Shown here piece after piece: positions 7,922 through 9,871 of a stretch of 34,955 nt of DNA. The stretch's first letter is position 1. The number at the start of each line of letters is the position of its first letter. The position numbers and the translations under genes are program-made. The DNA comes from Staphylococcus epidermidis (GTDB lineage Bacteria; Bacillota_I; Bacilli_A; RFN20; CAG-826), in the NCBI GenBank assembly GCA_945870555.1, contig CAMBSI010000006.1, positions 1 through 34,955 of the forward strand, written 5' to 3'. The notes under the pieces were generated by a model. That model was not told the origin of the DNA. It saw only the letters and a program-made list of their open reading frames with translations, and searched no databases.

Positions 7922-8494
7922 ATGAAAACAATATTGGTTGAAACGTCGGCAAGGCATATCCACTTAACACAAAAAGATTTGGAAGTCCTTTGTGGGGTTG
8001 GTTTCAAAATGGAATCCATTCGCCCATTATCCCAACCAGGGCAATATGTGGCAAATGTAAGACTCACATTGGTTGGCCCTAAAAAGAGTATAGAAAATGT
8101 GGTGGTTTTAGGTCCTGTTCGACCCGCATCTCAAGTTGAAGTTTCTGCAACTGAAGCTAGAATGTTAGGGGTCAATCCACCGATTCGTGAATCTGGAGAT
8201 ATTCAAGGTTCGTCCTCGATTACCATTGTTGGACCCAAAGGCCAAATCACCTTAGCTCAAGGTTGTATCATTGCCAAAAGGCATGTTCATATGACCCCTA
8301 TGGATGCGCAGTATTTTGGAGTTACCGATAAGCAAATGATTTCTGTCAAGGTTCAGTCAGTTTCAAGAAGTCTTATTTTTGCCGATGTAGTCGTGCGTGT
8401 TCGGAAGGATTTTGCATTAGCGATGCATATTGATACCGATGAAGCGAATGCTGCAGGTTTAACTGGTGATACCCAAGGTGAAATCATTCGATAG
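7922..8494 (+). CDS. pduL: Phosphate propanoyltransferase/phosphotransacylase, PduL family
   Basis: Paired histidine motifs ARHIHLTQKDLEVL and KRHVHMTPMDAQYFG; VVVLGPVRPASQVEVSATEARMLGVNPPIRESGDI. Confidence 0.93.
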   Translation: MKTILVETSARHIHLTQKDLEVLCGVGFKMESIRPLSQPGQYVANVRLTLVGPKKSIENVVVLGPVRPASQVEVSATEARMLGVNPPIRESGDIQGSSSITIVGPKGQITLAQGCIIAKRHVHMTPMDAQYFGVTDKQMISVKVQSVSRSLIFADVVVRVRKDFALAMHIDTDEANAAGLTGDTQGEIIR

Positions 8495-8502
8495 GCGTGT
8501 TT

Positions 8503-8532
8503 TTGAATTAAATTATCTTTTTTTAGTATAAT
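8503..8532 (+). promoter_or_regulatory. Sigma-A type promoter for the metK leader
   Basis: TTGAAT (8503-8508), 18-bp spacer, TATAAT (8527-8532); predicted start about 8539. Confidence 0.8.
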
Positions 8533-8539
8533 GCAACTA

Positions 8540-8682
8540 AGGTCATATCCCGACACTGTGAAAACGGACCGAACACAGTAGCAACTCTAGGTATCTAGTA
8601 AGTGCTGGTCCAAGCGGAGCTCCACCTCCGAACGATATGAGCGAAAGTTTCTTACACACTTTCCATCGTGGAAAGTTTTTTT
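8540..8682 (+). promoter_or_regulatory. SAM-clan riboswitch (SAM-I or SAM-I/IV-like, variant P2) controlling metK
   Basis: P1 TCATATC (8543-8549)/GATATGA (8634-8640); P2 ACTGTG (8555-8560)/CACAGT (8574-8579); P2-loop GGACC (8566-8570) pairs GGTCC (8607-8611); P3 AGCA..CT-CTAG/CTAG..AG-TGCT (8580-8606) with SAM-I core GCAAC/GUGCU; P4 CGGAG/CTCCG (8615-8630). Followed by alternative antiterminator/terminator, then metK. Confidence 0.87.
8658..8682 (+). terminator. Riboswitch expression-platform terminator
   Basis: ACTTTCCA-TCG-TGGAAAGT followed by a T7 run; 5' arm can alternatively pair with GAAAGT 8643-8648. Confidence 0.88.
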
Positions 8683-8701
8683 ATTCAAGGAGGACACAAG
8701 A

Positions 8702-9871
8702 ATGAAAGAATCCATGTTATTCACTTCCGAAGCAGTTGCTGAAGGCCATCCTGATAAAGTTTGCGATCAAATTGCAGATGCAATCCTTGATGCCTGCCTT
8801 GCTTTGGATTCACAAGCCCACGTTGCCATTGAATGTTTTGCTGCAAAACAAAAGTTATTGATTGGTGGCGAAGTCAGATTTTCTTCACCTAAAATCCAAC
8901 GACCAGACATCAAGAAAATTGCAAAGGATGTCATGAGAGAAATTGGTTATACCAATCCTGTGTTAGATTTTTCAGTTGATCAAGTTGAAATTTTTGACTG
9001 GGTACAAACCCAATCAGAAGATATTAATCAAGCCGTGAATAAGGAAGAAACCACCGCTGGCGATCAAGGTTTAATGTTTGGTTATGCCACTGATGAAACC
9101 GAAGGATTTATGCCGCTCGCGATTGTGTTAGCCCAAAAACTTGTTCGGGTGGCATCAAGACTAAGAAAACAAGGTCAATTCCCATATGCTCGGCCAGATA
9201 TGAAGTCACAAGTCACAATCGCATATGAAGGTAAGAAATCTCGGGTGGATAAAGTCGTCATGTCCATTCAACATGATCCAAATACCCCGTTTGTCGCATT
9301 CAAAGAATTTATCTTGGATAAAATCATTAAACCGGTGGTTGCTTCATTCAAGTTGAATCAGGATTATGAAGTATATATTAATCCTTCCGATCGATTTGTG
9401 ATTGGAGGCCCAGCGGGTGATACAGGCTTAACGGGTAGAAAAATTATTGTGGATACTTATGGAGGTTATGCTCGTCACGGTGGCGGGTCATTTTCTGGAA
9501 AAGACGCAACCAAGGTTGATCGATCAGGGGCGTACTTAGCAAGATATATTGCCCTCAATCTTGTTGCAGCAAAAGTTGCAAAAAAAGTTGAAGTTCAACT
9601 TGCCTACGTGATTGGACAATCTAAACCAGTATCCATCGCTTTATTCACATTCGGAACCTTAAAAAAAGGTTTAACTGAACAGCAAGTTCTTGAAGTGATC
9701 AAAAAAGTATTTTTCTTTAAACCTGGCGAGATTATTGAAAAATTCTCATTAAATAAACCTAAATTCCGATATCGTGATTTGGCAATATATGGCCATTTTG
9801 GTAGACCAGACCTTGATGTCCCCTGGGAAAAAACCGATCGCGTTAACGCGATATTGTCAAGTTTAGATTAA
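8702..9871 (+). CDS. metK: S-adenosylmethionine synthetase
   Basis: MLFTSEAVAEGHPDKVCDQIADAILDA, GDQGLMFGYATDET, FVIGGPAGDTGLTGRKIIVDTYGGYARHGGGSFSGKDATKVDRS; AGGAGG RBS near 8690. Confidence 0.98.
   Translation: MKESMLFTSEAVAEGHPDKVCDQIADAILDACLALDSQAHVAIECFAAKQKLLIGGEVRFSSPKIQRPDIKKIAKDVMREIGYTNPVLDFSVDQVEIFDWVQTQSEDINQAVNKEETTAGDQGLMFGYATDETEGFMPLAIVLAQKLVRVASRLRKQGQFPYARPDMKSQVTIAYEGKKSRVDKVVMSIQHDPNTPFVAFKEFILDKIIKPVVASFKLNQDYEVYINPSDRFVIGGPAGDTGLTGRKIIVDTYGGYARHGGGSFSGKDATKVDRSGAYLARYIALNLVAAKVAKKVEVQLAYVIGQSKPVSIALFTFGTLKKGLTEQQVLEVIKKVFFFKPGEIIEKFSLNKPKFRYRDLAIYGHFGRPDLDVPWEKTDRVNAILSSLD

Follow-up and report, generated by a model that had tools for sequence, protein, structure and literature searches.

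The metK leader of the 34,955-nt stretch of DNA analysed here (the window) is in all likelihood a SAM-sensing OFF switch that acts by terminating transcription, and it is very probably a trimmed-down relative of the SAM-I riboswitch that is used only for metK in one family of mostly uncultured Bacilli. This reading is based on the position of the leader in front of metK at every family locus examined, the covariation of its helices, the invariant ligand pocket, its detection by a model from which the genus of the window was left out, the scores obtained with the SAM-I model of Rfam (RF00162), and the terminators found in nearly all the family leaders. The SAM-I riboswitch is a textbook example of RNA-based regulation, and its kink-turn is usually credited with bending the RNA so that the P2 loop can take part in the pseudoknot. 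A family that keeps the SAM pocket and the pseudoknot without a kink-turn, beside relatives that bear the inner helix P2b, offers a natural series for testing the purpose of this bend. Judging from covariation across the family, the P4 loop and the terminator that follows it have co-evolved as pairing partners, and this pairing is a concrete and mutable link between aptamer and terminator. The family was placed through named relatives, e.g. Candidatus Alloenteromonas and other uncultured Bacilli.

The features of the leader are collected in Table 1. Given the promoter-like site and the intrinsic terminator, the leader transcript should extend from about position 8540 to the start codon of metK. 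The original prediction had proposed P1, P2, a pseudoknot, P3 and P4, and each of them is present in the sequence where it had been placed. Its description ended at the aptamer; the antiterminator, the terminator and the pairing between the P4 loop and the terminator were absent from it.

Table 1. Features of the metK leader and its gene in the window
Feature	Position	Strand	Evidence or remark
Sigma-70-type promoter for the metK leader	8503-8532	+	TTGAAT-18-TATAAT; consensus scan, 10/12 matches; 0.5 expected in shuffles
P1 5' strand, UCAUAUC	8543-8549	+	Covariation in 4/7 P1 pairs; A8547 and U8548 are the counterparts of SAM-I A6 and U7
J1/2, CCGAC	8550-8554	+	G8552 corresponds to SAM-I G11; its G and A invariant in 76/76
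P2, a single helix of 6 bp (8555-8560/8574-8579) that closes a 13-nt loop and lacks P2b and kink-turn	8555-8579	+	5/6 pairs covary
PK-1 5' strand, GGACC, in the P2 loop	8566-8570	+	Covariation; swap test of L2 x J3/4 complementarity (0/2000)
P3 (8580-8590/8595-8606) with the SAM-binding internal loop	8580-8606	+	Contact bases invariant in 76/76 family leaders; C8582, A8583 and A8584 correspond to C44, A45 and A46, U8603 and G8604 to U57 and G58
PK-1 3' strand, GGUCC, in J3/4	8607-8611	+	Covariation and swap test
P4 hairpin, CGGAG/CUCCG (8615-8619/8626-8630)	8615-8630	+	Double-sided changes at 4 of its 5 pairs (20 leaders)
UCCAC in the P4 loop, pairing with 8668-8672	8621-8625	+	Family covariation
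P1 3' strand, GAUAUGA	8634-8640	+	A8635 and U8636 are the counterparts of A87 and U88; covariation and invariance
Antiterminator hairpin, GAAAGU (8643-8648) with ACUUUC (8658-8663)	8643-8663	+	In 71/76 leaders the segment that follows P1 can form at least 4 pairs with the terminator 5' arm
Intrinsic terminator hairpin	8658-8676	+	Followed by a T-run (8677-8682); below -6 kcal/mol by folding in 73/76 family leaders
GUGGA, terminator loop and top of the 3' arm	8668-8672	+	Complementary to the P4 loop; family covariation
metK, S-adenosylmethionine synthetase, the regulated gene	8702-9871	+	Three S-AdoMet_synt Pfam domains

The single-sequence fold of the window leader did not stand out significantly from shuffled sequences (z = -1.67, with 12 of 200 shuffles equalling it), and the minimum free energy structure lacks P2. 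Taken alone the fold could therefore be due to chance, and it is the comparison with relatives that settles the structure. The metK leaders of these relatives share the consensus CUUAUCAAGAA-P2-AGCAACUC...GUAAGUGCU-PK-AGC-P4-GAACGAUAAG. When 20 leaders were aligned, 92.7% of the pair cells were formed (shuffles gave 73.4% and slid versions no more than 43.4%), and double-sided changes were present at 22 of the 32 pairs, including all five pairs of PK-1. A second alignment that excluded the genus of the window gave 96.7% of pair cells formed and 19 of 27 pairs with double-sided changes. Covariation among the leaders of related genomes, the check suggested along with the original prediction, is thus strong for P1 to P4 and for the pseudoknot between the P2 loop and J3/4, and on this comparative evidence the anatomy of the window leader is real and correctly placed.

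Two covariance models were used to find homologues, both with E-values that are rough. Model R2, built without the genus of the window, had a single match at E<=10 in the genome, namely the window site, with 67.4 bits (E = 3e-12). Within the order, model R1 had matches in 214 of 282 genomes, nearly always a single one in each, and it matched 94 of 398 genomes sampled from the phylum. The gene directly downstream is metK in 59 of the 59 family loci examined and in 19 of 20 loci of the class, the remaining class match (L202) having no metK within the stretch read. The expectation that metK would be the regulon member was accordingly borne out, and it is the sole neighbouring gene found in the family.

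Across the family, the sequence of the P4 loop can pair with the terminator loop and with the top of the terminator 3' arm, and the pairing takes different forms in different leaders: CCCACC/GGUGGG, CCCAGAA/UUCUGGG, CCCAUAA/UUAUGGG, UUCCACG/CGUGGAA and UCUCCAAC/GUUGGAGA. Taking a single leader from each genus gave a mean complementarity of 6.28, versus 5.05 (sd 0.17) in between-genus swaps, and none of 6000 swaps reached the observed value. Leaders were also anchored on CCA and UGG, which fixes three anchor columns by construction, so that those columns are not evidence. At one position, the 69 anchored leaders (20 genera) carry C-G in 55 cases, G-C in eight, U-A in five and A-U in one; all 69 are Watson-Crick and all four pair types are represented. 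A further 22 leaders could not be anchored; a few of these (L028, L236 and L237) are complementary by eye, and many others that have a short P4 loop have no GUGG in the terminator either. Complementarity to the P4 loop is missing from roughly 20-25% of the leaders, so that the pairing is not essential to the class. The swap test detected no P4-loop/terminator pairing in the outgroups. In the window the pairing comprises 5 bp (p ~0.07 against shuffled loops), which is weak alone, and its support is therefore the covariation in the family. A search of mostly open-access literature returned no account of such a variant or of a pairing between P4 loop and terminator.

In the mechanism that we propose, SAM would bind between P1 and P3 and stabilise P1, as can be expected from the biochemistry of SAM-I. 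Without SAM, the antiterminator would hold the 5' arm of the terminator while the P4 loop would hold part of its 3' arm (8668-8672), and metK would be transcribed. With SAM bound, P1 and P4 would be fixed, the P4 loop would release the 3' arm, the terminator would form and metK would be switched off. We infer that the P4-loop pairing probably acts as an antiterminator, and we regard the complete model, i.e. an OFF switch derived from SAM-I in which the P4 loop has this role, as rather likely on balance. The pairing occupies some of the bases of the terminator stem, as would be fitting for an antiterminator. In addition, the antiterminator equals the terminator in stability in only one of 89 leaders when taken by itself, and in 44 of 89 when the P4-loop duplex is added; this balance was obtained by rough addition, with loop penalties left out and with energies that share sequence, and so it does no more than tip the reading towards an antiterminator.

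The same OFF switch could instead use the P4-loop/terminator pairing as a kissing contact that forms with SAM bound and that would dock and stabilise the terminator. Such a contact would resemble the PK-2 of SAM-I/IV and SAM-IV, a pairing between an aptamer loop and RNA further downstream, and it would agree with the covariation of the pairing and with the location of three to four of its bases in the terminator loop. The terminators are also more stable in leaders with the pairing (median -14.9 versus -11.6 kcal/mol); however, a balanced antiterminator would also demand extra terminator stability. Moreover, the complementarity regularly reaches three to four bases into the 3' arm of the terminator, which must open for these bases to pair. 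We consider the kissing contact unlikely, at about one chance in four.

Under the antiterminator reading, the P4 loop and not the P1 strand might be the switching arm, capturing the 3' side of the terminator without SAM and replacing the usual SAM-I antiterminator that overlaps P1. We propose this tentatively, at slightly less than an even chance; if true, it would be a new design of expression platform in the best-studied riboswitch clan. When an antiterminator formed by the P1 3' strand was sought by folding, at least three P1 bases were paired in three of 76 leaders. A helix search gave this number of P1 bases in 27 of 93 leaders, with a median overlap of 0; since the overlap was also 0 in the Bacillus mojavensis control, this search does not decide the matter. 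In the scorable P4-less SAM-I copies of relatives, the antiterminator uses 6-8 bases of the P1 3' strand. Two G+C-rich family leaders (L034 and L179) have no T-run after the terminator-like hairpin, for which reason they may act on translation instead.

The relationship with SAM-I was evaluated using the Rfam models. The cmscan comparison that accompanied the original prediction as a check found that no existing SAM-clan model matches the window leader: the window gave none at the gathering score of each model (Rfam 15), and neither did the region 8490-8720 even at E<=10. When RF00162 (gathering score, 44.4 bits) was run over the whole genome of the window, the best score was 16.2 bits, at another site, and the metK leader was unmatched, whereas in the same kind of search the metK leader of B. 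mojavensis, used as a control, scored 70.7 bits. On the leaders of those relatives that were detected, RF00162 gave 36-65 bits and no other SAM-clan family scored better. The family members detected with RF00162 in short searches had 36-50 bits, two of them above the cut-off (46.7 and 49.9 bits), and in whole-genome searches none of the metK leaders of the family was above it. Most of these leaders are missed by Rfam, so that SAM regulation in these Bacilli is under-annotated.

The family shares with SAM-I the order P1-P2-P3-P4, the pseudoknot PK-1 between the P2 loop and J3/4, the internal loop of P3, the SAM-contact bases, metK as target and the intrinsic terminator; P4 lies between J3/4 and the P1 3' strand, and it covaries. 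In contrast, SAM-I has a two-part P2 (P2a and P2b) with a kink-turn and the family a single helix, the pair that follows C47-G56 of P3 is C-G in SAM-I and U-A in the family, and the P4 loop of the family covaries with the terminator. The claim that P2 is reduced to a 6-bp hairpin without a kink-turn held for the window and also for the family, where a single helix carries loops of 6-20 nt with no consistent inner helix, PK-1 having a median of 6 bp; at least three pairs can be drawn somewhere in the P2 loop of 31 of the 76 leaders, at varying places, so that some inner helices are to be expected by chance. In relatives from the class the inner helix P2b is present within the P2 loop in 20 of 20 leaders, and some of them carry the GA...GAUGA kink-turn signature. 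Relatives of the order that fall outside the family have metK leaders above the RF00162 cut-off (for instance 65.3 bits in G036 and 50.0 bits in G040). This gradient of score and P2b, from the outside relatives to the family, argues for descent from SAM-I through the loss of P2b and the kink-turn, the direction of change being inferred, and it lends support to the earlier suggestion of a lineage-specific simplified SAM-I. Genomes of the same class, most of them small single contigs, have SAM-I-like metK leaders near the Rfam cut-off (L191-L199, beside the match L202 mentioned above), several with an irregular P4.

The other class suggested by the original prediction, the SAM-I/IV variants (RF01725), did not find support. 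These RNAs likewise have no internal loop in P2 (PMC2864571) and share the SAM-binding core with the family, but in them PK-1 is absent and PK-2 is present (PMC6890682). A swap test with one leader per genus (30 genera, 2000 swaps) gave the reverse: no swap reached the observed complementarity of PK-1, while PK-2, sought between the P3 loop and the RNA downstream of P1, was undetectable (5.34 observed and 5.28 for the swaps, of which 745 of 2000 come up to the observed value). A search of 55 genomes with RF01725 found no metK leader of the family of the window. Based on this search and on the PK-2 test we rejected the SAM-I/IV assignment, which is highly improbable. SAM-IV (RF00634) resembles the family in its SAM-binding core and in PK-1; nonetheless, it has no P4 and does have P5 and PK-2 (PMC6890682), whereas the family has a covarying P4 and no detectable PK-2.

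The positions of the SAM-I aptamer equivalent to A6, U7, G11, C44, A45, A46, U57, G58, A87 and U88 are those which we take to contact SAM. Their equivalents, assigned using the T. tengcongensis aptamer sequence as printed in PMC5393176, are the same as first proposed for the window and are invariant in all 76 family leaders, so that the ligand pocket is indeed intact. The replacement of the J1/2 sequence AAGAG by CCGAC is correct for the window itself and does not extend to the lineage, given that most of the family has AAGA; the first two positions are CC in four of 76 leaders, and C8554 is an insertion relative to the model, an extra C present only in the window. A change of ligand on a conserved fold, as in the spermidine-sensing variants that share the SAM-I architecture and in some cases precede metK (PMC10853860), could be suspected from this departure of J1/2, but it is very improbable, because those variants alter the contact bases in J1/2 and in the P3 internal loop that are intact here, and metK is the only gene found beside the leaders of the family.

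Other SAM-I copies were observed in the course of these searches. In the window's own genome, which is 82% complete, no second SAM-I riboswitch above the RF00162 cut-off was found. SAM-I riboswitches with a kink-turn and without P4 are present on contigs of relatives (L112-L120) and on six contigs labelled as viral in IMG/VR (L223-L228). The genes downstream of these P4-less copies include those for DNA cytosine methyltransferase-like proteins (L223 and L224, by eye), MetK (L118 and L228), N-formylglutamate amidohydrolase (L112), and small proteins of no known function. Four genus-mates of the window (G001-G004; L250-L253) carry a second SAM-I riboswitch, which also lacks P4 and exceeds the RF00162 cut-off. 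In L250, L252 and L253 this copy precedes a gene of unknown function (MSGRWYTWFLEKGLT... or a similar sequence), whereas L251 stops short of the gene.
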